Below, piece by piece: positions 5,189 through 56,137 of a DNA stretch of 64,000 nt. The DNA lies in assembly GCA_024743215.1 (NCBI GenBank), contig JANSWZ010000009.1, positions 124,001 to 188,000 of the forward strand, in the 5' to 3' direction. This DNA is from Alphaproteobacteria bacterium (GTDB lineage: Bacteria > Pseudomonadota > Alphaproteobacteria > Rhizobiales > GCA-2746425). Positions within the stretch are counted from its first letter, which is position 1. Every line of letters starts with the position of its first letter. Under the pieces are notes generated by a model that saw only the letters and a list, made by a program, of their open reading frames with translations, was not told the origin of the DNA and made no database searches. The position numbers and the translations under genes are program-made.

Positions 5189-6001
5189 ATGATGGGCAAA
5201 TTTGTGTGTCTCGCGGGAGCTGTTTGGATGGCACTCTCGCTCCCCGCGACTGCGGAGCAGCGTGTGGTTTGCACCCTTGCAGTCGATGTCGGAACTGGTG
5301 AAACACTGATAGAAGACGGAAGCTGCAACGAACGTATTTCTTCTGCATCTACTTTCAAGATAGCGATCAGTCTCATGGCATTTGACAGCGGCATTTTCAC
5401 CGCATCAGATCAACCTGAATGGCCGTTTCGGGAAGGTTATGCCGACTGGAATCCAAAATGGCGCCAGTCCACCACACCTGAAACCTGGATGCGGGATTCA
5501 GTCGTTTGGTTCTCCCAGCGTGCTACCGAAAAAATGGGGCAGGATCAGTTTGCATCCTACGTTCAAGCCTTCGAATATGGAAATCAGGATATCTCTGGTG
5601 ACCCTGACAAGCAAAACGGATTGACCACTGCCTGGCTCAGTTCTTCCTTGCAGATTTCGCCTGCCGAGCAAGTTGCATTTCTAATACGAATGATCGAAGG
5701 GAAACTGCCGGTGAATGCAATGGCAGTTGAACAGACAAAGACATTGCTGGAGTTTGACGAGCATCCGAATGGGTGGCGCATCTACGGCAAAATGGGTGCC
5801 GGGCTGCCGTTTGGAGATGATGGCAAGCTGCTGAAGGGACAACCCTTTGGCTGGTACGTCGGCTGGGCTGAGAAAGAGAATCGCACAGTCGCATTTGCCC
5901 GGCTCATTCGCTTCAGCGAACGCCCCGACATGACCCCCGGCTTTCTGGCTCGAAAAGGGTTGGTCGATGCGCTCTTCAAATCCTCAGGAGGGCTTGACTG
6001 A
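5189..6001 (+). CDS. Class D (OXA-type) beta-lactamase with KMG in place of KTG
   Basis: 270-residue exported serine beta-lactamase-like protein. A signal peptide covers about residues 1-22 (cleavage near ATA-EQ). Class D motifs are in order and correctly spaced: STFK (54-57, nucleophile Ser54 and the lysine that is carbamylated in the family), SVV (104-106), YGN (130-132), then KMG (201-203) where the family normally has KTG or KSG, and FGWYVGW near 220. Length matches OXA enzymes. The Thr-to-Met change removes a hydroxyl that normally binds the substrate carboxylate, so activity or spectrum may be altered. An ampler family reading would be a penicillin-recognising sensor, but no regulator or membrane anchor is attached. 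Starts at 5189 or the next ATG at 5192. Confidence 0.88.
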   Translation: MMGKFVCLAGAVWMALSLPATAEQRVVCTLAVDVGTGETLIEDGSCNERISSASTFKIAISLMAFDSGIFTASDQPEWPFREGYADWNPKWRQSTTPETWMRDSVVWFSQRATEKMGQDQFASYVQAFEYGNQDISGDPDKQNGLTTAWLSSSLQISPAEQVAFLIRMIEGKLPVNAMAVEQTKTLLEFDEHPNGWRIYGKMGAGLPFGDDGKLLKGQPFGWYVGWAEKENRTVAFARLIRFSERPDMTPGFLARKGLVDALFKSSGGLD

Positions 6002-6082
6002 CATTGACTTGGTAATGGCATCTCGTAAAAGTGCCCTTCAATCGGGAACCTGAATCCTGAAACTGGTGACGGCAGCAAGCCC

Positions 6083-6958
6083 ATGAACATCGACCATCTG
6101 CGGGATTTTCTTTGCGTGGCGGAAACGCTCAACCTCACGCTGGCCGCAAACAGGCGGAATACGACACAGTCAAACTTCAGCAAACGCCTGCGCAAGCTGG
6201 AAGACTTCCTGGGTCGGGCGCTGATTGATCGCGGCAGTCGTCCTCTCTGCCTGACCGCAGCAGGGGAGGAGTTTGTGCCGAAGGCCCGGCAGATTCTGGC
6301 TGATATTGACAGTTTTCGAGGACAGACAGTGCCGTGGAGCCAGCGCGAGGGGGGCCTATCCATTGTCATGCCGCATAACGCGACTGTCGCCGTCTTCCCG
6401 CAATTCAAGGAATGGTTGTCGCATCGAATGGCGGATGTGCACTTTGCACCACTGATTGCCAATTACGATACGGCGGCCCGTTTGGTCGCGGGGTCTAAAG
6501 TCGATCTGGCGCTTGTCACGCGGCATCCGCGTGTTCCGCTCGACGAAAATCACTCGGTCTTTCGTTACGCTGATATCGGGCGGGACAGGCTTGTGGTGGT
6601 AGAAACGCCGGGCGCGTCCACACATGAGGAGTTGCCGCTGCATCTGTCGCATCCACTGACCTATATCGGCCAGATCTGGCAATCATGCCGCTGCGATCTG
6701 CCAGTGTCCAGGACGGTGCTTCATGGCATGGCGGCGGATGTAAGAGCACATTGTCTGGCAGGCAGAGGCAGGGGCGTATTGCCCGAAAGCCTTGTAGAGG
6801 CAGATAGCGCAGCTGGCAGGCTGGTTATTCGGGAAACCGGCGCAAAGCTCGACTACGCCATATCATTATATTGCGCACCACAAGCCTCGCGCCGGGCAAA
6901 GCAGGTGTGGACACTCGCCGCTGAATATCTTGCAAATGAAAGCCCCAAGGAACCTTGA
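6083..6958 (+). CDS. LysR family transcriptional regulator
   Basis: 291 residues. The N-terminal winged helix (1-60) has the LysR pattern LRDFLCVAETLNLTLAA, then a recognition helix with QSNFSKRLRKLEDFLG. The rest is a LysR effector-binding domain. It lies 81 bp after the class D beta-lactamase on the same strand and is convergent with the dienelactone hydrolase. Its target is not evident; LysR genes usually control a divergent neighbour, and none is present here. Start at the ATG 6083. Confidence 0.88.
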   Translation: MNIDHLRDFLCVAETLNLTLAANRRNTTQSNFSKRLRKLEDFLGRALIDRGSRPLCLTAAGEEFVPKARQILADIDSFRGQTVPWSQREGGLSIVMPHNATVAVFPQFKEWLSHRMADVHFAPLIANYDTAARLVAGSKVDLALVTRHPRVPLDENHSVFRYADIGRDRLVVVETPGASTHEELPLHLSHPLTYIGQIWQSCRCDLPVSRTVLHGMAADVRAHCLAGRGRGVLPESLVEADSAAGRLVIRETGAKLDYAISLYCAPQASRRAKQVWTLAAEYLANESPKEP

Positions 6959-17845: not shown

Positions 17846-18352
17846 ATGGCTGTTTCAGATCAGACTGACGACGGAGTTGACGCACAGTTTCGGATGGCAA
17901 TGCGCAAATTTCCCGCCACTGTCACCGTTGTAACCGCAAATGACGGCATTCGTGATCACGGCATGACCGTGACGGCCGTCACATCCGTATCCATGTCTCC
18001 CCCATCCTTGATGGTCTGTCTCAACAACCGGACACTCCTGCACGAAATGCTGCTCAATCAGGCACGATTTTCAGTGAATGTGCTCAATCAGGAGCACACG
18101 GAAACCTCAGATGCCTTCAGTGGTGTTGTGCCAGCTGAAGAGCGCTTCAATACGGGGGATTGGGTGCGGGACCCGTCAGGCATGATGGTTCTGAAGTCTG
18201 CCTTGTCCAACATCATTTGTCGCCGCACAGTGGCTTTGCCTTATGGCACCCACACGATCTTTGTGGGGGAAGTCAGCCATGTGCGGGTTGATGAAATTAC
18301 CCACCCGCTGCTTTATGCTGAAGCCGCCTATTGCGTTTCACATCCGGCTTGA
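17846..18352 (+). CDS. Flavin reductase of a two-component monooxygenase
   Basis: 168-residue protein of the HpaC-like flavin reductase family, which uses NAD(P)H to reduce free FMN or FAD for a partner monooxygenase. Visible motifs are the FMN-binding GMTVTAVTSVSMSPPSLMVCLN stretch in parts (about 40-60), FSVNVLNQEH (about 72-81) and the closing HPLLYAEAAY. GGAGG precedes the ATG 17846. No monooxygenase is adjacent, but an LLM-type one lies at 23900 behind a matching upstream element, so that is the probable partner. IclR follows on the same strand. Confidence 0.9.
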   Translation: MAVSDQTDDGVDAQFRMAMRKFPATVTVVTANDGIRDHGMTVTAVTSVSMSPPSLMVCLNNRTLLHEMLLNQARFSVNVLNQEHTETSDAFSGVVPAEERFNTGDWVRDPSGMMVLKSALSNIICRRTVALPYGTHTIFVGEVSHVRVDEITHPLLYAEAAYCVSHPA

Positions 18353-18497: not shown

Positions 18498-19340
18498 ATG
18501 AGTCTTGGCCTTCATAGTGTCCGTAAGGCGGCGTTGGTCTTGCGCATTCTGGCGACATTCAGTCCCAGGGGCGCCTCGCTGGCAGAGGTTTGTGAAAGTT
18601 CTGACTTTCCCAAAGCAACAGCGCATCGGATATTGGCAGCCCTCGTGGCCGAACGTCTGGTAGAACGCCCGGAGGGCACCCGATTGTATCGGCTGGGTCC
18701 GGAACTGTTTGCCTTCGGGACAGGCATATCCATGATGTTCGACTTCCGTGATCTGGCTGCCTCATCGCTTCAGCGTATCTCGGCAGAAACCGGAGAACTC
18801 GCCTTGTTGGGCATCCGCAGCGGTTACGATGCCTTGTGTCTGGACCGACGTGAGGGCATCAATACGCCGCCAGATGTGCTGATCCAGCTAATGGATCGCT
18901 GGCCGCTGGGCGTTGGCGTGTTCAGTCTGGCATTGCTGGCCTTTCTGCCGGATGATGAAATCAGCGAAGTGCTTGCCTATAATGAAAGGCGCTTGCGCCC
19001 CAAGTCGCAATTCTCGGCAGATCAGATAGCGCAATCTTTGCGCAAGGTGCGCAAGGATGGCTATGCCTATCTGACTTTCCCTGCATTGCCTGGCTCTGAA
19101 CCGAAGGCGGGCGTAGCGCTGCCCATTTTTGACACCCGACATCGGCCCATTGCGTCCCTGTGTATCATTGTCCATGAACGCCGTATGCGCGGTGATGCAT
19201 TGCAGCGCAGTGTCGCGCTATTGAAGCGGGAGACAGAATTGATTGCCGATCAACACGCCACACGACAGCTGGACGGCAGCGAGGAAGAAAGCTGGCAGCG
19301 TGCCATCGACAATGCGAGTGGAAAACGGTTGCAGCACTAA
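18498..19340 (+). CDS. IclR family transcriptional regulator
   Basis: 280 residues. The N-terminal winged helix (about 5-65; VRKAALVLRILATFS, then FPKATAHRILAALVAERLVE) and the C-terminal GAF-like effector domain (about 80-255) are both typical. IclR proteins control catabolic operons. It sits 145 bp after the flavin reductase on the same strand. Palindromes of IclR type occur before the flavin reductase, the hydrolase-monooxygenase-BKACE operon and, in a variant form, the ABC operon, so it is the natural candidate to regulate all three. A half-site (ATTCCGG, 18464-18470) precedes its own start, which has no obvious ribosome site. Confidence 0.9.
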   Translation: MSLGLHSVRKAALVLRILATFSPRGASLAEVCESSDFPKATAHRILAALVAERLVERPEGTRLYRLGPELFAFGTGISMMFDFRDLAASSLQRISAETGELALLGIRSGYDALCLDRREGINTPPDVLIQLMDRWPLGVGVFSLALLAFLPDDEISEVLAYNERRLRPKSQFSADQIAQSLRKVRKDGYAYLTFPALPGSEPKAGVALPIFDTRHRPIASLCIIVHERRMRGDALQRSVALLKRETELIADQHATRQLDGSEEESWQRAIDNASGKRLQH

Positions 19341-23068: not shown

Positions 23069-23854
23069 ATGTCGGTGACTGACAGTAACACTCTGATAAA
23101 GGACGGTTTTGTTGCTACCAAAACCGGCAGGATTCATTATCTGGAAGCTGGCGCGGGCGAACCGCTGCTTCTGTTGCACAGCAATGGTTGCTCAGCCCAT
23201 GAATATGAAGAAGTCATCGCCGGACTGGCAAAGAACCGGCGCGTGCTTGCATGGGATATGCCCGGCCATGGGGATTCCGATCCCACACCCCGACATCTGA
23301 GCATTGAGGAATACTCCGACGCTGTCATAGCATTTCTGGATGCGCTTGACATCAAGCGTGCAAGCGTTGCCGGTTCATCTGTCGGCGGCACAATCTGCGT
23401 TGATCTTGGTGTGCGTTACGCAGACCGCTTTGACTGGCTGTTCCTTGTCGAAACGCCCATCCGATCGCTGCAGGATTGGTTGGATGGTTGGGCAGGCATC
23501 GATATCAATTTCGGCATTCCAACCCAGAATTTTGAACTGATAGCCCCTCGTTTCCGCAAGTTGACACCGGCCAAGCTGACCCGCTGGAATTGCGACCGTA
23601 ACAAAGCCGGAGCCAAGACCATGGTGGGCGTTATGTGGGCGCTGCGGGACTACGATGTTCTGGAAAATCTCGGCAAGATCAAAGGCAATGCTGCGGTCAT
23701 TTATGGCGACGTTGGTCCGACCATTGCGGGGGCCAGCCATTTTGAAAAAATGTTGCCAGATGCGCCATCAATCACGCTGGATGACTGCGGTCATTTCCCG
23801 ATGAGTGACGATCCGGCTGCCTTTGTTGATGCTCTTGAAAGCATCCTGAAATAA
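23069..23854 (+). CDS. Alpha/beta hydrolase
   Basis: 261-residue serine hydrolase. The oxyanion strand LLLLHSNGCSAHEY, the WDMPGHGDS block (62-70), the nucleophile elbow GSSVGG with Ser104, and the late histidine in DDCGHFPMSDDP (about 245) are all in place. GGGAGGA precedes the ATG 23069. First gene of a run with a luciferase-like monooxygenase and a BKACE-family enzyme, suggesting that it opens an ester or lactone made by the monooxygenase. That order of reactions is inference; the substrate is unknown. Confidence 0.9.
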   Translation: MSVTDSNTLIKDGFVATKTGRIHYLEAGAGEPLLLLHSNGCSAHEYEEVIAGLAKNRRVLAWDMPGHGDSDPTPRHLSIEEYSDAVIAFLDALDIKRASVAGSSVGGTICVDLGVRYADRFDWLFLVETPIRSLQDWLDGWAGIDINFGIPTQNFELIAPRFRKLTPAKLTRWNCDRNKAGAKTMVGVMWALRDYDVLENLGKIKGNAAVIYGDVGPTIAGASHFEKMLPDAPSITLDDCGHFPMSDDPAAFVDALESILK

Positions 23855-23899
23855 GCGCGCAAGCGCGCCACTCTCCAATCACTTCACAGGTATCATACT

Positions 23900-25012
23900 A
23901 TGCGACTTGGATATTTTACGATGCCGATGCATCCAATGCATCGCAACTGGACTGAAACACTTCAGGAAGACCGCGAAGGTATTATCCTGGCCGATCAGTT
24001 TGGTTTTTATGATTGTTTCGTCGGCGAACATCTTGCCGACAAAGTGGAAACGATCACCAACAGCATGCTGTTTCTGTCGTCTCTGATTTCTGACACGAAA
24101 ACAATCAAGCTGGCCACCGGCACGTCCAATTTGTCGCAAAGCCACCCGGCGCTCATTGCATCCCACGCAGCCATGCTTGATCATCTTGCAAAAGGGCGTT
24201 TCATTTTCGGTATCAGCCCCGGCTCCCTCCCAACCGACGCTGAAATTCTTGGAACATTGGATCAGGACCGTCAGAAAATGTTTGTCGAGGCCATTGATGT
24301 CATTCTGGCCATCTGGCAGGGCGAGCCGCCCTACGATATAAATCTGCCGGACAATCGCTACAAGATTTCGACCATGCGGACCGGAGAATTGTCGCTGGGC
24401 CTTGGGTATCTGGCAAAGCCTTATCAGCAGCCGCTTCCCGAAATCGTCGGCACTGTCGTTGCACCATTTTCCAAGGGTGTGATTGAGATGGGTAAGAAGG
24501 ATTTCCATCCCATGTCCGCCAATTTTCTGCTGTCAAAATGGTTGAAAAGCCACTGGGACAATTACTGCGTGGGCAAAGAGGCCGTTGGCGCCAAAGCTGA
24601 TCGGTCCGACTGGCGGATCGCGCGCACAATTTTTGTCGCCGATGATGAGGCAACTGCAAAACGTTACGCAAGGGAAGACCCGAACGGTCCTTACCATTTT
24701 TACTACAATCAGATTCTGACCAAGTTCAAACGCGCCGGCATTCATGGTGGCTTCAAGGAGCACCGCGAACAGCCCGATGACGAGATTACCTTGGATTATG
24801 TCATGGACAATCTGGTGATGTACGGAACGGTCAATTCGGTTGTCGACCAGATTTTGGAGCTCAATGAAGAGGTCGGTGGCTGTGGCGAACTGGTCTATGC
24901 GGGCATGGATTGGGTGGACCCGGCGCTGGGCAAACGCTCCCTGGAATTGATGGGAACGGAAGTCATGCCGCGTGTGCGCAAGGCAACCGGCACGCCGGAT
25001 GGAATTTCCTGA
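23900..25012 (+). CDS. LLM class flavin-dependent monooxygenase
   Basis: 370-residue bacterial-luciferase-like (TIM-barrel) monooxygenase. The start RLGYFTMPMHPMHRNW, the EHLADKVE segment (about 43-50), the ATGTSNLSQSHP stretch (about 73-84) and RFIFGISPGS (about 98-107) fit the LLM group related to limonene and alkanal monooxygenases. These enzymes need reduced flavin from a separate reductase; the flavin reductase at 17846 is the likely source because both transcription units share an upstream element. It follows the hydrolase by 45 bp. Confidence 0.92.
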   Translation: MRLGYFTMPMHPMHRNWTETLQEDREGIILADQFGFYDCFVGEHLADKVETITNSMLFLSSLISDTKTIKLATGTSNLSQSHPALIASHAAMLDHLAKGRFIFGISPGSLPTDAEILGTLDQDRQKMFVEAIDVILAIWQGEPPYDINLPDNRYKISTMRTGELSLGLGYLAKPYQQPLPEIVGTVVAPFSKGVIEMGKKDFHPMSANFLLSKWLKSHWDNYCVGKEAVGAKADRSDWRIARTIFVADDEATAKRYAREDPNGPYHFYYNQILTKFKRAGIHGGFKEHREQPDDEITLDYVMDNLVMYGTVNSVVDQILELNEEVGGCGELVYAGMDWVDPALGKRSLELMGTEVMPRVRKATGTPDGIS

Positions 25013-25051
25013 GATAAAATTTCGCAAAACACAATCAGGGGAGGGATCAGA

Positions 25052-25936
25052 ATGTCGAGACCCGTCATTATAACATGCGCCGTGACAGGCGGTGATCACG
25101 GCATCGCCTTGCGCAATCCGAATGTGCCGGTGACACCGGAAGAAATCGCCAGTGAATGCATCGCTGCGGCAAAGGCGGGTGCAGCTGTGGCGCACATTCA
25201 TGTGCGTGATGTGGTGACCAAAGCCGCGTCGATGGATCTGGCGCAGTACCGTGAAGTGGTTGAACGCATACGCGCAAGCGACACAGATATTGTGATCAAT
25301 CTGACCACCGGTCCGGGCGCTTTTTTCACGCCCTCAGAGGACAATCCTCAAATCGCTGCAGAAGGCAGCGATCTGGCATCTCCTGAAGAGCGCGTGGCTC
25401 ATATCAGGGAATTGAAACCGGAAATCTGCAGCGTGGATGTGGTGACATTCAATCATGGCGGACGTGTTTTCATGAACACACCAGCCCATGTGGAAGCCAT
25501 GCTGGAAGTCATTAAATCCGTTGGTACAAAGCCGGAGCTTGAAGCCTTCGATGTTGGCAATGTTCTGCATGGCGCAGATCTGGTAAAACGAAATTTTGCC
25601 AAAGCGCCTGGCCTGTTTCAGTTCTGTCTTGGAATACCCTGGGGCGCGCCTGCGACTGTGGAAGCCATGACCTTCATGCGCTCGCACCTGCCACCCGATG
25701 CCGTTTGGGCCGGGTTTGGTGTTGCAAAAACCGAATTCCCGATGGCCGCCGCTGCCGTGTTGCTGGGTGGGCATGTCCGTGTCGGTCTGGAAGACAATAT
25801 CTTCATCGAGCGCGGTGTGCTGGCCGAAGGAAATACGCCGCTTGTGTCTCGTGCCGTGGACATCATCGAAAGCGTTGGTGAGAGACCGGCGACACCAGAT
25901 GAAGCACGCGAAATACTGGGTCTTGGATTGGGTTAG
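25052..25936 (+). CDS. BKACE family (DUF849) beta-keto acid cleavage enzyme
   Basis: 294-residue TIM-barrel enzyme of the beta-keto acid cleavage family, which converts a beta-keto acid plus acetyl-CoA into acetoacetate and a new acyl-CoA. The zinc-binding HIHVRD (48-53), the NLTTGPG segment (about 85-91) and the late VGLEDNIF (about 247-254) are characteristic. GGGGAGGGA precedes the ATG 25052. As the third gene after a hydrolase and a monooxygenase it would be well placed to finish a ring- or chain-cleavage pathway, but which beta-keto acid it takes cannot be read from sequence. Confidence 0.92.
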   Translation: MSRPVIITCAVTGGDHGIALRNPNVPVTPEEIASECIAAAKAGAAVAHIHVRDVVTKAASMDLAQYREVVERIRASDTDIVINLTTGPGAFFTPSEDNPQIAAEGSDLASPEERVAHIRELKPEICSVDVVTFNHGGRVFMNTPAHVEAMLEVIKSVGTKPELEAFDVGNVLHGADLVKRNFAKAPGLFQFCLGIPWGAPATVEAMTFMRSHLPPDAVWAGFGVAKTEFPMAAAAVLLGGHVRVGLEDNIFIERGVLAEGNTPLVSRAVDIIESVGERPATPDEAREILGLGLG

Positions 25937-26089
25937 GTTCGGCACCATTGATCCAGCCCGTTTCGCTCATGGCTACCTTGCTGAATTCCATACTGTTTTT
26001 GATATGGATCGCTTCCTCATTGTGTGAAAATCTGTCGGCACATGGAAGGGCCTGTTGCAAACGGGCCAGGACGCGCGCGGAGGCAGGAC

Positions 26090-27016
26090 ATGCTCAATCG
26101 ATTTGATCGGCTCAAATTCAAACAGCTCAGCCACTTTATAGCAGTGACCGAAGCGGGCAGTATCAGCGAGGCTGCGGACAATCTGTTCATGCCGCAACCA
26201 GCACTCAGCCGCAGCATCCGGGACCTGGAAGAAATTCTCGGTGGCGTGCGCCTGTTTGAGCGCGCCCGCAAGGGTGTGACGCTCACCAGCAATGGCAAAA
26301 AATTTCTCGCATATGCCACTCTTGTACAGTCAAATTTTGAAACGCTGAGCAGCGGGTTTGTGAGAGATGAAGGCCATACAGGTGGGCTGGTACGGATCGG
26401 CATGGGCGCCTATGAAGGCTACACTTTCCTGCCGGAAATCATTGGCCGTATCCTCAATCGCCGACCCAACGCCCAGTTCAATTTCATGAGCGGTCGCTTC
26501 AATGATCTGATCGGTCCCTTGTTGCACGGCAAGCTGGATATCATTTTTGGGCCGGTCAATTCCGGCGCGTTGCCCAAAGGCGTGCGTTCGCACATCGTTG
26601 CGCAGTCCAAGCCATCCATTCTGGTGCGATCGGAACATCCCCTGGCCCGTCAGAAAAAGGTCACGTTGAAGACGCTGGCCAGTCAGGAATGGCTGGTTCC
26701 AGTTGCCGATACCTTGCCGCGCAGAAAGTTTGATCAGGTTTTTCTGAAAGAGAAGCTGCAGCCACCCACCGGCCCGGTAGAAATTTCGCCGTCCGTCCTG
26801 ATGATTGCGATCCTGCGCCAGAGAAATCTCATTGGACTTGTTCATCCTCAATTATTGTCACTGGCGGCCGACTCTGGCGAATTGGCAGAGCTGAAGATGA
26901 CCACAAATCCGTTCAGTTGGCCGGTTCAGTTGACGACCGTTGACCGACGGCATCCTTCGCCGGCCGTAGACGAAACAATCAGTCTGATCAAAACCATGTT
27001 CAAAGACCAGCCATAG
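26090..27016 (+). CDS. LysR family transcriptional regulator
   Basis: 308 residues. The helix-turn-helix (about 8-65) reads LKFKQLSHFIAVTEAGSISE, AADNLFMPQPALSRSIRDLE, and a type 2 effector domain follows. The start is the ATG 26090 just after GGAGGCAGGAC; an open extension upstream is rejected. It is co-directional with the hydrolase-monooxygenase-BKACE genes (153 bp gap) and with the oxidoreductase after it, so it could regulate either side. Confidence 0.9.
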   Translation: MLNRFDRLKFKQLSHFIAVTEAGSISEAADNLFMPQPALSRSIRDLEEILGGVRLFERARKGVTLTSNGKKFLAYATLVQSNFETLSSGFVRDEGHTGGLVRIGMGAYEGYTFLPEIIGRILNRRPNAQFNFMSGRFNDLIGPLLHGKLDIIFGPVNSGALPKGVRSHIVAQSKPSILVRSEHPLARQKKVTLKTLASQEWLVPVADTLPRRKFDQVFLKEKLQPPTGPVEISPSVLMIAILRQRNLIGLVHPQLLSLAADSGELAELKMTTNPFSWPVQLTTVDRRHPSPAVDETISLIKTMFKDQP

Positions 27017-27191
27017 GGAGCCGAGGGATACTCGCAGACAAAAGTGCATGCCTGAGAATGCATGTATTTGCCCAGGAAATGGGTTGGGTCTTGGAGCAAG
27101 TTCCATGCAAGCCTTCATCAACACGGGCGGGAAACGGCGGAATTCCGCTTGCCCGCTTAACGCCAATGCAAACGTAAAATGGAATCAGCCA

Positions 27192-28226
27192 ATGCTAAAT
27201 CTCGCAGTCATAGGTCTTGGAAAATGGGGGCAGAGGCATGCCCAGTCTGCTTCTGCCAGCGGTCGTTTCAATGTGGTAAAGGGTGTGGACACGGCTGCTG
27301 TGCCGATGGACTTTCCAGTTGTACCATCCCTTGATGAGGTGCTGGAGGATCCGGACATTGACGCGGTTTCCATTGCAACACCCCACACGCTTCACGCAGA
27401 ACAGATCCGCCTTGCGGCAGAGGCCGGAAAACACATTTTGACGGAGAAACCATTTGCTCTGTCCTACGCAAATGCGCAGCAGAATGTGAAGGTAACAGGC
27501 GACCACAATGTTGTTCTGGCGCTTGGCCATGATCACCGTTTTTACCCATCAATTGCCGTGATGAAAAAGCTCATCGCGGACGAGGCTTTGGGCCAGATCA
27601 CAACCATCCAGTCTGTGTTGTCACATGATTTTACAAAGGCGGCGATTGAAAAGCTCAACAAGGCTGCGGCTGGTGATCGGGGATCCAGGGATGACGGCAC
27701 CTGGTGGCGTTTGAACCTGGCTGAAGCACCTGTGGGTCCGATGGTCCATTTGGGCATTCATCATCTTGATCTTTTCATCCATCTGTTTGGTGAAATTGAC
27801 TGGGTACTGGCCAGCAGTCCGGCGCGGACAATCGACACACCCTTTCCCGATACCATGCTGGTGACGCTTGGGTTTGTCAGCGGAAAAATCGGCACCATAA
27901 GCAGCTCACTCGCATCTCCCCTTAATTCAAGATTGCTCATATCGGGATCAGAAGGCTGGGCCGAAGCAATTGGCCCCGACGATATAGCATCCTACACACT
28001 CTCCAGTCTGAACAGCGTTAAAAGCCGGATTGGCAGCGCCCAGCCCGAACTGACGGAGTTCGCGCTCATTGATTCAGTGGCCGCAAATTTCGCAGCCTTT
28101 GCTGATGCGATTGAGGGCATTGCACCCTATCCGATTGCTGCCGCTGATATGCTGCACAATGCGGCCGCGCTTGAGGCGATTGTCAGGTCTTCGCACTCTT
28201 CAGGCATTGAAAAAGTGGTGCGTTAG
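27192..28226 (+). CDS. Gfo/Idh/MocA family oxidoreductase
   Basis: 344 residues. The N-terminal Rossmann fold opens with AVIGLGKWGQRH (about 5-16); the catalytic-region EKPF is at 85-88, and the conserved HLGIHHLDLF motif follows near 190. Family members are NAD(P)-dependent sugar, inositol or related dehydrogenases. Start at the ATG 27192 with a weak GGAA site. It stands between a LysR gene and a racemase-like gene in the catabolic block; the substrate is not evident. Confidence 0.9.
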   Translation: MLNLAVIGLGKWGQRHAQSASASGRFNVVKGVDTAAVPMDFPVVPSLDEVLEDPDIDAVSIATPHTLHAEQIRLAAEAGKHILTEKPFALSYANAQQNVKVTGDHNVVLALGHDHRFYPSIAVMKKLIADEALGQITTIQSVLSHDFTKAAIEKLNKAAAGDRGSRDDGTWWRLNLAEAPVGPMVHLGIHHLDLFIHLFGEIDWVLASSPARTIDTPFPDTMLVTLGFVSGKIGTISSSLASPLNSRLLISGSEGWAEAIGPDDIASYTLSSLNSVKSRIGSAQPELTEFALIDSVAANFAAFADAIEGIAPYPIAAADMLHNAAALEAIVRSSHSSGIEKVVR

Positions 28227-28408: not shown

Positions 28409-29272
28409 ATGTCCGAAAGTAAGTACAAATTCCTGTTCATTTCTGCGTTTTGCCTGCCCGACGACAGCCCGTTTTCCGGGCCGAAACGTGGCGAAGGTAT
28501 TCCCAAGGAAGAGCGTCTTCAGAACTACCAGAATGTGAAACATCTTCTGGCAGATGTTGATTGGGATATGCATCCCGGTGCCATGACAACTTATGGCAAT
28601 TGGACGGTGGAAAACCGCCAGGAATTTCTCTACGCAGCGGCGGGCCGTATTCCGATTGTGCAGGAAGCCTGTGAAAGCGGAAAATACAATGCGATTATCC
28701 TGGAAGGTGGCGGGGAGCCCGGTTTCATGGAAGCGCGCGAGTTGACGCGGCGCTATGGGATTCCGGTCACGTCATGCGGGCATTCGCAAATGCATTTTGC
28801 CTCCATGCTCGGCAATAAATTTGCAATCATCGATTTCTCCGACGTGCATACCATGTTCTTCCATAATCTGGTTGTGCAGCACCGCATGACAGACCGCTGC
28901 GCTTCCATTCGCAATATTGGTTATTATCATTCCAAGCCGCATTACAAGGATGCTGAATCCTTCAGTGCCGAGCGTCGCAAGGCTATGGCGGGCGAGCCTT
29001 CAGAAGCTGTGGAGCGCGCCGTCAGCGAGGCGATCAATGCCATTGAAGAAGATGGTGCAGACGTCATCATGTTCGGTTGTTCAGGCTCTTTCTGGCTCAA
29101 GCCTTTTGTCGAAAAGCGATTGCATGATGAGGGCTGGGAAGTGCCTGTAATCGAAGGTTATGGCGCTGCTATTGAGTTGGCCAAGATTCAGGTCGATTAC
29201 GGCGTAACCGCAAGCGGGTTGGCGTTCCCAGGAGATCGTCCAAAGAAGCGACCACGGAAAATTGTATTTTAA
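28409..29272 (+). CDS. Aspartate/glutamate/hydantoin racemase-like protein
   Basis: 287 residues resembling the Asp/Glu/hydantoin racemase superfamily: ILEGGGEPG (about 96-104), VTSCGHSQM with a first cysteine (about 127), and VIMFGCSGS with a second (about 225), as needed for two-cysteine proton transfer. It is longer than typical hydantoin racemases (about 240), with an N-terminal extension. Members also include maleate isomerase and arylmalonate decarboxylase, so racemisation is not certain. A 182-bp gap separates it from the upstream dehydrogenase. Confidence 0.7.
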   Translation: MSESKYKFLFISAFCLPDDSPFSGPKRGEGIPKEERLQNYQNVKHLLADVDWDMHPGAMTTYGNWTVENRQEFLYAAAGRIPIVQEACESGKYNAIILEGGGEPGFMEARELTRRYGIPVTSCGHSQMHFASMLGNKFAIIDFSDVHTMFFHNLVVQHRMTDRCASIRNIGYYHSKPHYKDAESFSAERRKAMAGEPSEAVERAVSEAINAIEEDGADVIMFGCSGSFWLKPFVEKRLHDEGWEVPVIEGYGAAIELAKIQVDYGVTASGLAFPGDRPKKRPRKIVF

Positions 29273-29639
29273 ACAGTCGGTTACAGTAGATTTCAGGTTG
29301 TTTCTACCTGTGGTCGAATAGGATAAATTCCACGATGTGGAATGCTGTTGGTTGTCGGTGGTCGTTTTGGTCCGGTATTGGTTGAAGGATTGGTTTTTTT
29401 GCATTTTCATCTGCCGAGCCCCGCGCTGTGTTGCAGGAATGATGTGCCAAAAACGATGCTCGGAATGACGCTGGGCGCGATGTCTGGGAGACAGCAAAGT
29501 TAGTGCGGTGAAAGCACGTAGTCTTTTGGGGAAAATCCGCCGGAGAGCGGAGCTGAACGACTGATTGATCGACTGGTGCCCGGAGGCAGCAAATTGCTGC
29601 AGGCATCAGGTTGCTGTAGGCAGCAGGAGGAGATGGAAA
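29273..29639. promoter_or_regulatory. ABC operon upstream region with an IclR-like palindrome
   Basis: 367 bp without a gene. A perfect 17-bp palindrome ATTCCAC-GAT-GTGGAAT lies at 29327-29343; it has the same outer ATTCC...GGAA arms and three-base centre as the palindromes at 17720 and 22941. The rest includes a T-rich stretch (about 29386-29402) and the AGGAGGAG ribosome site of the permease gene. Confidence 0.5.
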
Positions 29640-31345
29640 GTGTCACGAGTGGCATCCGGGCAATCATTCTTGCCCCGCGACCCAATTTTGGCTGTGGTCA
29701 AAATCATCGTCCTTTTGGCGATGCTTATGCTCGCAGTTCCCATTCTGTCATTGGTCTATACCAGCCTGACTGGTGAAGACGGATTTACCCTGTCCAACTT
29801 TGCGCTGGTAACCGAGCACCCACAATTCTGGCCTGCGATGGGAAACACCGCCATTGTCGGGTTTGGCACGGTCATCGTGATGATTTTCTTCACTGTACCG
29901 CTTGCCTGGATTTATTCACGGACCGATCTCCCGGTCAAAAATCTGATGCTGGCGTTCATTACAATCAATGTGGCCATCCCCAGTTTTCTGGTGGCGATGG
30001 GTTACATCTTCATATTCAATCCCACCAATGGTGTCTTCAACGAGTTGTGGCGCCTGGTCGTTGGGGAGCGTCAGACCCCCTTCAATGTCTACAGCATTGG
30101 CTGGATCTTTTTTCTGCAGGGCGTTGCACTCAGTTCTCCCGCATTTTTCATGATGGTGCCAACATTCCAGGGCATCGACAGCTCTCTGGAAGAAGCTGCC
30201 GCCGCCAATGGCGTGAACCGTTGGAAAGCCGCGCTTTACATCGTGCTGCCATTGGCGTCTCCGGCCATTCTCGCAGTCGCTTGCTACTACTTCATCATCG
30301 CCATTGAGATATTTGACTATGCGGGCATGTTGGGCACGCCGGTACGCACCTATGTGGCAGCCACATTGCTCTATGCCTTTATTCATGATGGCAGCGGTTT
30401 GCCGCGTTACGCAGAAGGCGCGTCGCTGGGTCTGATGATGGCCGTGGCAGCCTTTCTGCTGGCGCTTGCCTATCTTTGGTCTGTCCGCAAAGCGGATCGT
30501 TTTGTGGTGCTGACCGGCAAGCGTAAGGAACAAACACCCATCAAGCTGACCAGATCAGGTCGTCGGCTGGCCTGGGGGTTTATCGGCACCTATTTTCTCA
30601 TCGGCACCGGCGTGCCGCTGCTCATGTTGATCTGGGCTTCCGGCCTTCCCTTTCTGCAGGTCCCATCATGGAGTGCATTGCAGAACTGGAATTTTCAAGC
30701 CTACATCAATGTGCTGCCTATGGTTCCCGAACTCCTCAAGAACAATTTCATCCTGATGTTGGTCGTTCCAACCATCGGCGTCACACTGGCCGCCTGCATG
30801 GCCTGGGTCGGCACGCGCTTTAAGACACGCCTGCGCAAAGGTATTGATATCACCGTCATGGTTGCTGTTGCTGTGCCCTCAATTGTGGGCGCGCTGGGCT
30901 TTCTGTTTTTCGGTCTCAGCGTAAACAGCCACGTCGCGATCTATGGCACCATCTGGTTGATCGCAATTGCCATGGCGGCACGCTATCTGACCTGGGCTAA
31001 CCGCACGGTGACAGGTGCGATGATGCAGCTTCATCCCGAAATTGAAGAAGCAGGCCTGGTGTCGGGTGTGCGCAAGGGCCGCTCATTTGTCTCCATTGTG
31101 CTGCCCAATGTGGCCCGCTCATTGTTGATTTCGTGGTTTTGGCTGGCGTTGCTATCCCTGCGTGAATTGACCATTCCAATCATGTTGTCACGCCGTGGCA
31201 CCGACGTTTTCGCCACCGCAATCTGGGGGTTGAATACATCAGGCATTACCGATGAAGCAGCTGCGCTGAGTGTCATCCTGGCGTGTCTGATCCTTCTGCT
31301 GGTCGTTGTCTTCCACTTAATTTCCACCAAATGGGTCGTGCAAAA

Positions 31346-31349
<4 letters not shown>
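29640..31349 (+). CDS. Fused double-permease of an ABC importer (iron(III)/thiamine-type)
   Basis: 569-residue inner-membrane protein with about twelve helices in two halves, each carrying an EAA-type loop for the ATPase (EEAAAANGVNRWKAA near 205, EEAGLVSGVRKG near 475). Single-chain permeases of this type occur in Fbp/Afu and ThiP systems. The start is GTG 29640, seven bases after AGGAGGAG; the paralogue at 54404-56137 also begins with GTG. Its stop overlaps the ATPase start (ATGA at 31346-31349). The context of catabolic enzymes argues for an organic solute rather than iron. Confidence 0.92.
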
Positions 31350-32446
<1,097 letters not shown>

Positions 32447-32482
32447 GGTCTGATTCGCAGAAAACTCAACAGGGGAATAGTG

Positions 32483-33517
32483 ATGCATATCTCAAGAAAG
32501 CTGATCTCATCTGTCACAGCAATGGCTGTAATGGTCGCACTGCCTGCAAACGCGCAGATGACGCTGGATGAACTGGTCAACAAGGCAGGGGAAGAAGGCA
32601 TCGTCGCGATGAACACATCGACGACGCGATACCCGAGCAGCGCAGCGCCGGGCCTGTCAAAAGCGATCTCTGAAAAATTCGGCATCGATCTTGAAGTTGA
32701 ATTCGTCAACAGCTCACCCGTACCCGTTATCACCGGGCAGGTGATCAAGGAAACACTTGCCGGTGTAAAGCCAAGTTTCGATGTGTTTCCGCTGCCACTG
32801 TTTCTGACGGTGCCTCTCAGCGAAGCGGGCGCAGTTGAGACAATCGATTGGGCCGGTATTGGTGTTGATCCGGACCTGATCGACCCCAATGGCAACGCGG
32901 TCTGGATTCACACCATACCGCGCGCGGTCACCTACAACACGGATCTTGTTGAAGCCGATGACATTCCAACCAGATTGGAAGACCTGCTTGATCCCAAGTG
33001 GAAAGGCAAGATTGCTGGCCCCGGATTTGGCGGTGCCTACGGTATGATCAGCGTTCCTGTTCTGGGTGAGGAAAAAGCCTCTGATTGGCTCAAAACGCTT
33101 TATGAAGATCAGGATTTGGCGGTCATCCGATCGATGACGGATGTTCCCACCCGCGTTGCAAATGGAGAGTTTTCCATTGGTATGGGTGTTCCGGCAAATT
33201 ACTCCGGCCTGGTCACAAAGGGTGCACCAATTGCAAACGCTCCGCTGGAGAAAGTGGGCAGCCAACCCTACTACATGTTTGTTCTCAAAAACGCCGAGAG
33301 CCCTCATGCAGGCGCGCTGCTGACCTACTTCTTCTGCTGCACGCCGGAAGGCAAAAAAGCGCAGCTTGAGCATATGAACACAGCCATGTTTGACACGCCC
33401 GGCTCGGAGCAGAACGAAGTTGGCGGTGATGGCCGCGGCGTTGCCCCGACGACTGAATGGCAGTTGACCCAGCAGAGGCGTGTCGCAGAGGCTTTGGACA
33501 AATTAATCGGACGCTAG
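32483..33517 (+). CDS. ABC importer substrate-binding protein, tandem copy A
   Basis: 344-residue exported protein with a signal peptide ending near ANA-QM. It belongs to the extracellular solute-binding superfamily that pairs with Fbp-type importers, with a hinge-region DPNGNAVWIHT and the DLLDPKWKGKIAGPGFG segment. It is closely similar along its whole length to the next gene and to the protein at 52222-53259. All three end with a YFFCCT pair of adjacent cysteines about 45 residues before the C-terminus and a final IGR. Start ATG 32483; the GTG just upstream is also in frame. Confidence 0.92.
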   Translation: MHISRKLISSVTAMAVMVALPANAQMTLDELVNKAGEEGIVAMNTSTTRYPSSAAPGLSKAISEKFGIDLEVEFVNSSPVPVITGQVIKETLAGVKPSFDVFPLPLFLTVPLSEAGAVETIDWAGIGVDPDLIDPNGNAVWIHTIPRAVTYNTDLVEADDIPTRLEDLLDPKWKGKIAGPGFGGAYGMISVPVLGEEKASDWLKTLYEDQDLAVIRSMTDVPTRVANGEFSIGMGVPANYSGLVTKGAPIANAPLEKVGSQPYYMFVLKNAESPHAGALLTYFFCCTPEGKKAQLEHMNTAMFDTPGSEQNEVGGDGRGVAPTTEWQLTQQRRVAEALDKLIGR

Positions 33518-33551
33518 AGGCAAGAATTCTAAAAACCAAAGGAGGACATAA

Positions 33552-34595
33552 ATGCATATTTCGGGAAAACTAATCACGTCAGTAGCGGCGATGGCTGCGG
33601 TGGTATTCGCTGCTGCGCTGCCTGCAAATGCACAAATGACGCTGGACGAATTGGTCAACAAGGCCGGTGAGGAAGGCAAGGTCGATATGAACACATCGAC
33701 GACACGCTATGCGGCAACAGCTGCCCCCGGTCTGTCCAAGGCCATTTCCGAAAAATTCGGCATCGATCTGGAAATCGAGTTCGTCAACAGCTCTCCCGTC
33801 CCCGTGATAGCCGGACAGGTCATTGAAGAGCACAAGGCGGGCATCAAGCCAAGCTTTGATGTGTTTCCGCTGCCATTGTCCTTCACCAAGCGCATTGGCG
33901 AAGCCGGTGCCATTCAGAAAGTTGACTGGACCGGCATTGGTGTTGCGCCTGATTTGATCGATCCAAATGGCAATGCCGTCTGGATTCACACCATTGCACG
34001 TGCGGTTGTTTACAATTCAAACATCGTGACCGGGGAAGACATCCCGACAAAGCTGGATGATCTGTTGGATCCCAAGTGGAAAGGCAAAATCGCCGGACCC
34101 GGATTTGGCGATGCCTATGGCATGATCAGTGTTCCGGTTCTTGGCGAGGAAAAGGGCAAGGAGTGGGTCAAGGCTCTGTATGAAGATCAGGACCTCGCCG
34201 TCATTCGCTCCATGACAGATGTGCCAAACCGGGTTGCCAATGGTGAATTTGCCATCGGTATGGGCGTTCCGGCCAATTACTCCGGACTGGTTACCAAAGG
34301 CGCTCCCATTGCGAATGCGCCTTTGGAGAAAGTGGGCGGACAGCCTTACTACATGTTCGTTCTTGAAAACGCGGCGCACCCCAATGCCGGTGCACTTCTG
34401 GCCTATTTCTTCTGCTGCACGGAAGAAGGACGGCAGGCTCAGCTAAAGCATATGGGCGCCGCCATGTTCGATGTGGAAGGCTCCGAGCATAACGCCGTTG
34501 GCGGAGGTGATCGTGGTCAGGTGCCAACGCCTGAATGGCAGCTCAACGATCAGGGTCGGGTAGCCAGGGAAATGGATGCGCTGATCGGTCGCTAA
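33552..34595 (+). CDS. ABC importer substrate-binding protein, tandem copy B
   Basis: 347-residue exported binding protein, paralogue of the preceding gene 34 bp away; the two are so alike that a recent tandem duplication is the simplest explanation. The signal peptide ends near ANA-QM. Differences cluster in segments likely to line the cleft (for example LSFTKRIGEAGAIQK here against LFLTVPLSEAGAVET in copy A), so the pair may bind different ligands for one permease. A hairpin terminator follows. Confidence 0.92.
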   Translation: MHISGKLITSVAAMAAVVFAAALPANAQMTLDELVNKAGEEGKVDMNTSTTRYAATAAPGLSKAISEKFGIDLEIEFVNSSPVPVIAGQVIEEHKAGIKPSFDVFPLPLSFTKRIGEAGAIQKVDWTGIGVAPDLIDPNGNAVWIHTIARAVVYNSNIVTGEDIPTKLDDLLDPKWKGKIAGPGFGDAYGMISVPVLGEEKGKEWVKALYEDQDLAVIRSMTDVPNRVANGEFAIGMGVPANYSGLVTKGAPIANAPLEKVGGQPYYMFVLENAAHPNAGALLAYFFCCTEEGRQAQLKHMGAAMFDVEGSEHNAVGGGDRGQVPTPEWQLNDQGRVAREMDALIGR

Positions 34596-53291: not shown

Positions 53292-54407
53292 TCAGGTTTC
53301 AGAATTGGGGAACACGTTGAAGTCCGAATGCTTCAGACTCACCTCCGTTTCGTCCCCTTCCTTGAAATGGAATGTGTTGGGCAGCCGTGCGGTAAATCCA
53401 TGATCTCCAACCATCATGTCGCACAGCAATGCATCACCAATGTAGTAGCTCTGCGTCACCCTGGTTTTGAACGACACGCCATCAGGCCGCGCGCCCACCT
53501 GCACGTCTTCCGGCCTGAATCCCAGTTTGATTGTCTTGCCGAGGCCGGCTGCATCAGCCGCGTCGATCGGAATTGTTCCAAACGGCGTCTGAGCAGATAG
53601 TGTGTCGCCAGAATTCACTTGTTCCCCGGAGGCCATCTGTTGCAGAGAGCCGGGAATGAAATTCATTTCCCCCAGAAACCTTCCAACGAATTCACTGGAG
53701 GGCCTTTTATAAAGCTGCTCCGGCGTGCCTTCTTCGACTATCTGACCGCCATCCATCACGGCAATCCGGTCACCCATCACCATGGCTTCGACCTGATCAT
53801 GGGTCACATAGAGCGTGGTGATACCAAGCGTCCGGGTGATTTTCTTGATTTCAATTCGCAACTGGATGCGCAACTTTGCATCGAGGTTGGAGAGCGGCTC
53901 ATCCATCAGCAGAACGGCAGGCTCAAGCGCCAGCGCCCGTGCCAGCGCCACACGCTGCTGCTGGCCGCCGGATAATTGCGAAATGGGGCGGCGCAGATAG
54001 GGCTCCAGTTGCAGCGTCTCGGTAATGGCCTTCACACGCCGTTCAATCTCCGGCGCGGCAACCCGGCGCACGCCTTTGCGCAGCGGAAATACGATGTTGT
54101 TGTAGACATCCATATGCGGCCACAGCGCATAGGACTGAAACATCATCGCAACCGGGCGTTCTTCTGGCGGAATGTTCAGCCCGGCGGATGAAGAAAACAC
54201 GGTTTGGGCGTCAATCTGGATCTCGCCGGAATCAACGGTTTCAATACCGGCCACGCTGCGCAGGGTTGTGGTTTTGCCGGACCCGGACGGCCCCAGCAGC
54301 ACATAGAACTCGCCTGATGCGACCGTGAAGGACACATTGTTGAGCGCGTCCACAACCTGTCCCTTGTCGGTGATGAAGCGTTTTTTCAAGGACGTGCCGG
54401 TAATCAT
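53292..54407 (-). CDS. ABC importer ATP-binding protein, second system
   Basis: 371 residues, paralogue of the ATPase at 31346. Walker A GPSGSGKT (39-46), signature LSGGQQQR, Walker B LLMDEP, YVTHD switch, and a C-terminal regulatory domain that differs more between the two than the cassette does. Start ATG 54407 overlaps the permease stop (ATGA), exactly as in the first system. Confidence 0.95.
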   Translation of the reverse strand: MITGTSLKKRFITDKGQVVDALNNVSFTVASGEFYVLLGPSGSGKTTTLRSVAGIETVDSGEIQIDAQTVFSSSAGLNIPPEERPVAMMFQSYALWPHMDVYNNIVFPLRKGVRRVAAPEIERRVKAITETLQLEPYLRRPISQLSGGQQQRVALARALALEPAVLLMDEPLSNLDAKLRIQLRIEIKKITRTLGITTLYVTHDQVEAMVMGDRIAVMDGGQIVEEGTPEQLYKRPSSEFVGRFLGEMNFIPGSLQQMASGEQVNSGDTLSAQTPFGTIPIDAADAAGLGKTIKLGFRPEDVQVGARPDGVSFKTRVTQSYYIGDALLCDMMVGDHGFTARLPNTFHFKEGDETEVSLKHSDFNVFPNSET

Positions 54408-56137
54408 GTGCGGACAATCCATTTGGTCGTGGTGAAGTGAAACAGGGTAACGAGCACCAGAATAATGCACGCCAGAATGACGCTGAGAGCAGCCGCCTCA
54501 TCAGTTATGCCCGATGAATTCAGGCCCCAGATTGCGGTTGAAAACACATCCGTTCCCCGGCGCGACAGCATGATTGGAATGGTCAGTTCACGCATGGACA
54601 GAAGCGCAAGCCAGAACCAGGAGATGAACAGCGAGCGCGCCACATTGGGCAGAACCACCGATACAAAGCTGCGCCCGCGCCGCACGCCGGAGACCTGGCA
54701 GGCCTCTTCAATTTCCGGATGAAGCTGCATCATGGCACCGGAGACCGTGCGGTTGGCCCATGTCAGGTAGCGGGCTGCCATGGCAATCGCGATGAGCCAG
54801 ATGGTTCCATAAATCGCGACGTAGCTGTTAATGCTCAAGCCGAAGAACAGGAAACCAAGCGCACCGACAATGGATGGAACGGCCACCGCCACCATCACTG
54901 CGATGTCGATGCCTTTGCGCATACGGTTCTTGAAGCGCGTGCCAACCCAGGCCATGCACGCTGCCAGAGTGACACCAATGGTTGGCACCGTAATCATCAG
55001 CAACAGATTGTTTTTCAACAGGCCCGGCAGCATCGGCATGACATTGGCATAGGCTTGCAAGTTCCAGTTTTGCAAAGCGGCCCAGGATGGCACGCGCAGA
55101 AACGGCATGCCGGACGCCCAAAGCAGCATCAGCAGCGGTATACCGGTGCCCAGGAAAAAATAGGTGGCGACGAAACCCCAGCCCCAGCGCCGGCCTCTCC
55201 GGCCCAGCTTCAGCGAAGCCTGGGCTTTCCGCTTGCCGGTCAGCACCACATAGCGGTCGGCATGGCGCACGGACCAAAGATAGGCAATGGCCAGGATCAT
55301 CGCGGCTGCGGCCATGATAAGCCCCAAGGACGCGCCTTCGGCATAGCGCGGAAGACCGCTGCCATCATGAATGAATGCATAGAGCAGTGTGGCCGCTACA
55401 TAGGTGCGTGCCGGGGTTGCCAGCATTCCGGCATAGTCGAATATCTCCACCGCAATGATGAAGTAATATGCAGCAACTGCCAGGATCGCAGGTGAGGCCA
55501 GAGGCAGCACGATGTAGAGCGCTGCTGTCCAGCGTTTGACACCATTGGCAGAGGCCGCTTCTTCCAGCGATGTATCGATGCCCTGGAAGGTTGGCACCAT
55601 CATGAAAAAGGCCGGTGCACTGAGTGCCACACCTTGTAGAAATATGACCCAGCCAAGGCTGTACACATTGAACGGGGTCTGGCGCGCGCCCACGATGACG
55701 CGCCAGATTTCATTCACCAGTCCATTGCTCGGATTGAAGATGAAGATATAACCCATCGCGACCAGAAAGCTGGGGATCGCAACATTGATGGTGATGAGCG
55801 CGAGCATCACATTTTTGCGCGGCAGATCAGTACGTGTGTAAATCCAGGCCAGCGGCACCGTGAAGAAAATCATCACAACAACGGTGCCGACACCAACATA
55901 TAATGTGTTGAGCATTGCCGGCCAGAATTGAGGATGCTCGGCCACCAGGGCAAAATTTGAAAGTGTGACACCGTCTTCGCCAACGAGGCTTGTATAGACC
56001 AGTGAGCAGATTGGAATCGCAAGCAGCAGCATTGCCACGATGACAATGATCTTCACCGTAGACAAAAGCGGATCGCGCGGCAGGAAGCTGCCCTTGGGGC
56101 CAGCTTCATTGATCACGCCGGTATTTGCCTGCGACAC
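54404..56137 (-). CDS. Fused double-permease of the second ABC importer
   Basis: 577-residue inner-membrane protein, highly similar throughout to the permease at 29640-31349, with two EAA-type loops (EEAASANGVKRWTAA and EEACQVSGVRRG). It starts at GTG 56137, seven bases after GGGAG. Gene order permease-ATPase-binding protein and the four-base overlap are conserved with the first system, so the two cassettes are an ancient or recent whole-operon duplication lying in opposite orientation. Confidence 0.94.
   Translation of the reverse strand: MSQANTGVINEAGPKGSFLPRDPLLSTVKIIVIVAMLLLAIPICSLVYTSLVGEDGVTLSNFALVAEHPQFWPAMLNTLYVGVGTVVVMIFFTVPLAWIYTRTDLPRKNVMLALITINVAIPSFLVAMGYIFIFNPSNGLVNEIWRVIVGARQTPFNVYSLGWVIFLQGVALSAPAFFMMVPTFQGIDTSLEEAASANGVKRWTAALYIVLPLASPAILAVAAYYFIIAVEIFDYAGMLATPARTYVAATLLYAFIHDGSGLPRYAEGASLGLIMAAAAMILAIAYLWSVRHADRYVVLTGKRKAQASLKLGRRGRRWGWGFVATYFFLGTGIPLLMLLWASGMPFLRVPSWAALQNWNLQAYANVMPMLPGLLKNNLLLMITVPTIGVTLAACMAWVGTRFKNRMRKGIDIAVMVAVAVPSIVGALGFLFFGLSINSYVAIYGTIWLIAIAMAARYLTWANRTVSGAMMQLHPEIEEACQVSGVRRGRSFVSVVLPNVARSLFISWFWLALLSMRELTIPIMLSRRGTDVFSTAIWGLNSSGITDEAAALSVILACIILVLVTLFHFTTTKWIVRT

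Follow-up and report, generated by a model that had tools for sequence, protein, structure and literature searches.

Background

To our knowledge, the pathways of beta-keto acid cleavage enzymes (BKACE, DUF849) with known inputs are few, and the systems closest to the locus reported here come from camphor, carnitine and deoxyribonate degradation and from flavophos biosynthesis. The locus consists of three neighbouring genes, for an alpha/beta hydrolase, a luciferase-like flavin monooxygenase (LLM) and a BKACE-family enzyme, in a 64,000-nucleotide stretch of an Alphaproteobacteria bacterium genome (assembly GCA_024743215.1, contig JANSWZ010000009.1, positions 124,001 to 188,000 of the forward strand), the whole of which is referred to as the window.

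In the camphor pathway of Pseudomonas putida, 3,6-diketocamphane 1,6-monooxygenase (3,6-DKCMO, structure 4uwm), a two-component Baeyer-Villiger enzyme using flavin mononucleotide (FMN), acts ahead of lactone opening; the window LLM shares its fold, although the two proteins are only 26 % identical, and we know of no BKACE in the camphor route. Carnitine degradation offers a precedent for BKACE acting together with a thioesterase, a partner that matches four relatives of the window cluster, and the window BKACE belongs to the same Phe166 subfamily (residues are given in BsfD numbering, from the alignment) with its loop after strand 3; it differs in having Phe91 rather than Asp91, and a monooxygenase is added in the window cluster. 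A carnitine-type region of Arctic SAR11 with BKACE and an acyl-CoA thioesterase is described in the accessible part of one report (PMC12421898). The accessible part of another describes a deoxyribonate pathway with a lactonase, a short-chain dehydrogenase/reductase (SDR) and BKACE, where mutant data support the role of BKACE (PMC6365646). The likeness to the present locus lies in a lactone hydrolase and BKACE within one catabolic operon; the substrate, however, is a sugar acid, and that part of the report mentions no monooxygenase. BsfD of flavophos biosynthesis (structure 9zsc) resembles the window BKACE in its close sequence, zinc ligands, Phe166 and aligned loop, but it catalyses a biosynthetic condensation and has Arg91.

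An earlier note, made from the window sequence alone, knew of no described pathway with this trio. Likewise, a literature search on BKACE, DUF849 or 3-keto-5-aminohexanoate cleavage together with luciferase-like or LLM proteins, covering few subscription journals, did not find the combination, and the gene combination is undescribed in the literature searched, its component enzyme families being known.

Conservation of the gene trio

The pairing of LLM and BKACE is repeated, yet far from universal. With the window LLM as query, named genomes yielded 133 relatives, with loci (numbered with the prefix L, flanks up to 10 kb) kept for 80, and a second search, covering 397 genomes that belong to the same order, gave 39 matches in 38 carriers, with loci for 30. 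The combined set holds 112 loci besides the window (the 80, L086, L087, L088 and 29 from the order search), or 107 non-redundant loci after removal of identical LLMs. A BKACE was regarded as close when it scored more than 150 bits and lay at most 1.5 kb from the LLM gene; the BKACE match in L119 was weak (27 % identity, 64.7 bits) and was therefore not counted as adjacency. A BKACE relative was found within 1.5 kb of the LLM gene in 14 of the first 80 loci, including L032, where a LysR gene lies between the two, and L076-L079, where they are divergent; in one further locus (L021) it lies farther away. In the non-redundant set 23 of 107 loci have a close BKACE, with at least five changes on the LLM tree, window included. 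In a family with reduced genomes (f4, 0.9-1.6 Mb), BKACE adjoins LLM in all 13 LLM carriers.

Among the five top-ranked LLM relatives (L005-L009, 69-74 % identity), four (L005, L006, L007 and L009) possess all three genes. In each of these four, the BKACE stop and the start of a thioesterase gene share 4 bp, an arrangement in keeping with an acyl-CoA product; the thioesterase was confirmed by Pfam as 4HBT-type in L006 and L009, and in the same two loci Pfam was used to check a flavin reductase, whose gene stands upstream of the hydrolase gene in L006, L007 and L009, the L005 locus ending at the hydrolase. Flavin reductase, hydrolase, LLM, BKACE and thioesterase form five adjoining genes in L006. 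In L005, L007 and L009 the hydrolase gene is more than 5 kb from the LLM gene, beyond an ATP-binding cassette (ABC) transporter and a LysR gene. No BKACE was found in the loci of L010, L014 and L016, which rank lower with an LLM identity of 70 %.

A gene for a thiamine diphosphate (ThDP) enzyme within 1.5 kb of the LLM gene, with BKACE absent, was observed in L008, L088, L012 and L015, and the ThDP enzyme is a possible alternative partner for C-C cleavage. Both L008 and L088 (a Paracoccus methylovorus plasmid) have genes for hydrolase, LLM, ThDP enzyme, flavin reductase, SDR and a racemase-family protein.

In streamlined marine relatives (L076-L079 and L125-L128) the LLM and BKACE genes are divergent within a similar gene order, and their neighbours include genes for a TauD-family dioxygenase, a 2-hydroxyacid dehydrogenase, a GMC oxidoreductase and an amidohydrolase, checked by Pfam in L078 and assigned by similarity in the others.

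Monooxygenase and hydrolase

The nearest solved structure of the window LLM by sequence is 4uwm (E 3.5e-28, residues 14-359 aligned). When an AlphaFold2 model of the protein (mean predicted local distance difference test score, pLDDT, 91.2) was compared with the PDB by Foldseek, 4uwm again ranked first, with a template modelling (TM) score of 0.85 at 26 % identity; luciferases reached TM scores of about 0.72-0.78 and alkanesulfonate monooxygenase 0.65, with SfnG at rank 41 and alkanesulfonate monooxygenase at rank 46. Closest sequence and fold similarity to diketocamphane monooxygenase was taken as the sign of a type II Baeyer-Villiger enzyme, and on this modelled and sequence-level kinship Baeyer-Villiger chemistry is suggested for the window LLM. 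Type II Baeyer-Villiger enzymes of SAR202 genomes are proposed, in the accessible part of one study, to act on cyclic compounds (PMC5395668). In 14 of the 112 loci a flavin reductase relative is encoded at most 1.5 kb from the LLM gene.

The hydrolase open reading frame (ORF) opens at TTG 22976; ATG 23069 is the better start, since a ribosome-binding-like GGGAGG stands 5' of it. Close relatives of the hydrolase (47-52 % identity, 49 % for that of L009), with the Ser and His residues conserved, occur in L005, L006, L007, L008, L009, L018, L033, L034 and L088, whereas identity drops to 22-25 % in ten further hydrolase rows near LLMs, two of which (L086 and L132) are the same gene. A count of hydrolase adjacency in 15 of the 112 loci was not retained as one group because it mixes these two hydrolase groups, just nine rows being close relatives. 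Similarly, Asp214 was discarded as the acid residue of the catalytic triad, as it is not conserved among relatives. The model of the 3-oxoadipate enol-lactonase PcaD (TIGR02427) is among the best NCBIfam scores of the hydrolase, but an assignment as PcaD was rejected at 100.9 bits against a cut-off of 255.85. The product of PcaD is a beta-keto acid, and a product of that kind would suit a subsequent BKACE step.

Residues of the BKACE-family enzyme

The zinc ligands His48, His50 and Glu247 are conserved in the window BKACE, together with Asp248. In the NCBIfam comparison the protein scored 248.3 bits; four BKACE models matched it, each with a score under its cut-off. Position 166 is Phe. The accessible part of a 2026 preprint places Tyr at this position in all BKACEs, calls it catalytic, and ties the Phe166 of BsfD to a different, condensing reaction (PMC12871164). 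A plasmid-borne carnitine operon (L150), annotated with BKACE, L-carnitine dehydrogenase and thioesterase genes, was found to encode a BKACE with Phe166. On searching 297 genomes of the order with the dehydrogenase of this operon, matches were obtained in 73, and loci were taken for the 30 best (L151-L180). BKACE is present in 24 of these 30, with Phe166 in 24/24 and Asp91 in 23/23 rows that cover the residue; six, including the five best dehydrogenase matches, had no BKACE within the flanks. The window BKACE is 42-49 % identical to 23 of these BKACEs, 39 % to one partial row and 51 % to the L150 plasmid copy. We take the role of the BKACEs of carnitine-dehydrogenase loci to be cleavage, and since all 24 carry Phe, Phe166 is a doubtful sign against cleavage; as proof of BsfD-like chemistry it was dropped.

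Among 24 LLM-linked BKACE rows, window included, position 91 is Arg in 21, and Ala, Met and Phe occur once each, the Phe being that of the window. According to the accessible part of the preprint, Arg91 of BsfD lies near the phosphonate (PMC12871164). Residue 91 seems to track substrate charge, with Asp accompanying carnitine genes and Arg in the phosphonate-using BsfD, and from the aligned residues we infer for the window BKACE a beta-keto acid substrate that is neutral at the end touched by residue 91. Phe91 argues against a cationic substrate such as dehydrocarnitine or 3-keto-5-aminohexanoate, the latter having been named in the earlier note as a specificity that would separate BKACE from the monooxygenase.

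An identification of the window BKACE as a 3-dehydrocarnitine cleavage enzyme was rejected, as it has Phe91 and not Asp91 (a criterion that is our own) and carnitine dehydrogenase had no match in the window genome at E 1e-70. A Pfam family search recognised four BKACE-family genes in this genome, and a carnitine role for the paralogs was discarded, since L121, L122 and L123, where Pfam was applied to some of the genes, showed no recognisable carnitine context. The fourth of these matches (L004; L123 6122-7000) had been flagged with one internal TGA; the interval holds an uninterrupted ORF of 292 aa that Pfam assigns to BKACE, adjoining a TctA gene, and the TGA is probably the gene's own stop. 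On an Aminobacter plasmid (L149), 3 kb separate the gene of a carnitine-like BKACE with Asp91 from that of a distant LLM, which shares 24 % identity with the LLM of the window; the two genes are noted at 1910-2944 and 6001-6897, and enoyl-CoA hydratase and acyl-CoA dehydrogenase genes are also present.

Genomic surroundings in the window

Pfam and ORF coordinates agree with the earlier note on the adjacency of the hydrolase, LLM and BKACE genes (Table 1). All three Pfam scores exceed the cut-off, and the intergenic gaps are 45 and 39 bp, a spacing from which alone co-transcription may be proposed; promoter- and terminator-like sites were no more frequent than in shuffled sequence.

Table 1. 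The trio and neighbouring genes discussed in the text, in window coordinates
Feature	Coordinates	Strand	Evidence and remarks
Alpha/beta hydrolase, 261 aa	23069..23854	+	Pfam Abhydrolase_6 (63 bits), Abhydrolase_1; Ser104 in GSSVG, His242 in CGHFP
LLM-family monooxygenase, type II Baeyer-Villiger-like, 370 aa	23900..25012	+	Pfam Bac_luciferase, 105 bits
BKACE-family (DUF849) enzyme, Phe166 subfamily, residue 91 Phe	25052..25936	+	Pfam BKACE, 313.7 bits
LysR-type regulator, candidate regulator	26024..27016	+	Pfam HTH_1, LysR_substrate; 87 bp 3' of BKACE
Gfo/Idh/MocA oxidoreductase, possible downstream member	27048..28226	+	Pfam; 31 bp after LysR
Asp/Glu-racemase-family protein, single conserved Cys, possible pathway member	28409..29272	+	Pfam Asp_Glu_race
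Fe3+-type ABC transporter (fused permease, ATPase, two binding proteins), possible importer	29565..34595	+	Pfam
Flavin reductase, separate unit, possible source of reduced flavin	17846..18352	+	Pfam Flavin_Reduct, 130.5 bits
IclR gene	18498-19340		Ends 3.7 kb before hydrolase

The earlier note had also named flavin reductase and IclR for a co-occurrence search with the trio. Their genes in the window lie in another unit and are unlikely to be members of this operon: the reductase gene ends 4.7 kb before the hydrolase gene, and between them lie a Crp-family gene on the opposite strand, a PRC-barrel gene and creA. Identity of the reductase to that of L009 is also low, at 31 %. Several LLM relatives have a LysR gene divergent to LLM, from a cluster other than that of the window regulator. 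Of the 112 loci, only 3 have a Gfo/Idh/MocA relative at most 1.5 kb away from LLM. The cluster of the window's fused permease is also represented near LLM in L005, L007, L009 and L010, at an identity of only 25 % to the L009 copy. A second transporter with a fused permease of the same cluster as that at 29565-31349 is encoded on the minus strand of the window (54404-56137), with its ATPase (53292-54470).

Copies of the racemase-family protein that are 53-61 % identical to that of the window occur in LLM loci L008 and L070, and an aligned copy in L088. When its Cys positions were compared with those of hydantoin racemase, the first was found to be Gly (GGGEPG) in all five rows (window, L008, two of L070, and L088), the second Cys being kept. 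We take this Gly/Cys pattern to recall arylmalonate decarboxylase, and the protein may, on its aligned residues, be a decarboxylase rather than a racemase.

A proposed pathway and its alternatives

The trio may constitute a catabolic module that degrades a small ketone-like compound by Baeyer-Villiger-type oxygenation, hydrolysis and BKACE cleavage, a tentative reading to which we give slightly less than an even chance. It builds on what was observed directly, namely gene identity, partial co-conservation, the zinc ligands and kinship to diketocamphane monooxygenase; the reactions and their order are proposed. A separate flavin reductase would supply reduced FMN to the LLM, which would add one oxygen beside a carbonyl and so form an ester or lactone. 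The hydrolase would open this product to a beta-keto acid, directly or after further oxidation, and the zinc-dependent BKACE would cleave the acid with acetyl-CoA to acetoacetate and an acyl-CoA, from which a thioesterase, as encoded next to BKACE in relatives, could release the acid. This succession of oxygenation, hydrolysis, cleavage and thioester hydrolysis is the most economical one. Should the substrate be a simple ketone, the extra oxidation that the earlier note had placed before BKACE might be the work of the Gfo/Idh or of some other dehydrogenase. That oxidation is not required if the substrate is a 1,3-dicarbonyl: the LLM would turn R-CO-CH2-CO-R' into a beta-keto ester, the hydrolase would release a beta-keto acid and R'OH, BKACE with acetyl-CoA would give R-CO-CoA and acetoacetate, and the thioesterase would then free the acid, so that the five genes of L006 would suffice. 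We nevertheless consider it unlikely that 1,3-dicarbonyl (beta-diketone) compounds are degraded here by an aerobic pathway of their own, and none of the papers listed in a search on beta-diketones was relevant, as judged by titles and the beginnings of abstracts.

Several observations weigh against the proposed module. The co-conservation expected in the earlier note is borne out by four of the five top-ranked LLM relatives; it is lacking in 84 of the 107 non-redundant loci, which have no close BKACE within 1.5 kb (many loci are short), and LLM and BKACE are not together in the four congeners searched. L008 and L088 carry the ThDP-enzyme gene after LLM in place of BKACE, and when LLM carriers were sought across the class (E 1e-130), the two genomes gained, L181 and L182, had no BKACE in their 4 kb. 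In the window itself neither a flavin reductase nor a thioesterase gene adjoins the trio. In favour of the module stand the adjacency among the 80 loci and in f4, and the approximately unbiased (AU) test, which rejected a single clade of LLM-linked BKACEs (p 0.0002, 24 rows vs 15), implying that several BKACE lineages gained or retained the pairing; the test, however, used a quickly built tree, several branches of which are long, and no more than 15 unlinked BKACEs, gathered by hand. The order of oxygenation, hydrolysis and cleavage agrees with the nearest relative of the LLM being a Baeyer-Villiger enzyme and with the thioesterase overlap; however, the identity to 4uwm is low and the LLM family performs many reactions, and the window BKACE lacks the Tyr called catalytic and shares Phe166 with BsfD, which condenses rather than cleaves, according to the accessible part of the preprint (PMC12871164). 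Against the reading of residue 91 as a guide to substrate charge, Phe91 separates the window BKACE from most LLM-linked relatives, and Arg91 occurs in LLM-unlinked BKACEs too and is thus a weak pointer to a shared LLM substrate.

A different order of events is conceivable but rather doubtful: the target of the LLM would be an N-heterocycle or a C-heteroatom bond, the hydrolase would then break an amide, formyl or enol-lactone linkage of the product, and BKACE would act later. RutA, SsuD and the trigonelline proteins TgnAB are LLM proteins with such chemistry, and the neighbourhood differs by lineage, amidohydrolases and the TauD-family dioxygenase being present in the marine relatives; nevertheless, the top match of the window LLM in both sequence and fold is a Baeyer-Villiger enzyme, with SfnG and alkanesulfonate monooxygenase far down the ranking. 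It is also improbable that the three genes are mere neighbours in an accessory catabolic region, serving separate pathways. Within the genus of the window, LLM occurs in three of five genomes (46-48 % identity in the two others) and BKACE relatives in all five (35-48 % in the congeners), with both together only in the window genome and in none of the four congeners as a pair, and the window LLM and BKACE differ in their nearest relatives; the adjacency is, however, repeated in distant lineages.

Equally improbable in our view is a BsfD-like reaction of the BKACE-family protein, in which a beta-keto acid would lose CO2 and receive the acetyl group of acetyl-CoA instead of being cleaved. In its favour, BsfD (9zsc) ranks second among the solved relatives, aligns in the loop after strand 3 and carries Phe166 (PMC12871164). 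Against it, the best solved relative, 3c6c, is labelled a cleavage enzyme and has an aligned Phe at 166, BsfD has Arg91 where the window protein has Phe91, and the BKACE gene overlaps a thioesterase gene in four relatives. Furthermore, Phe166 is shared by the 24 carnitine-locus BKACEs, presumably cleaving enzymes.

Implications

Carnitine-linked BKACEs usually have Phe in place of the supposed catalytic Tyr, and this Phe alone is no predictor of non-cleaving chemistry; residue 91 offers a testable specificity position. In Proteobacteria, a streamlined family among them, the repeated association of this BKACE subfamily with one type II Baeyer-Villiger-like oxygenase suggests a catabolic route that is still unexplained.

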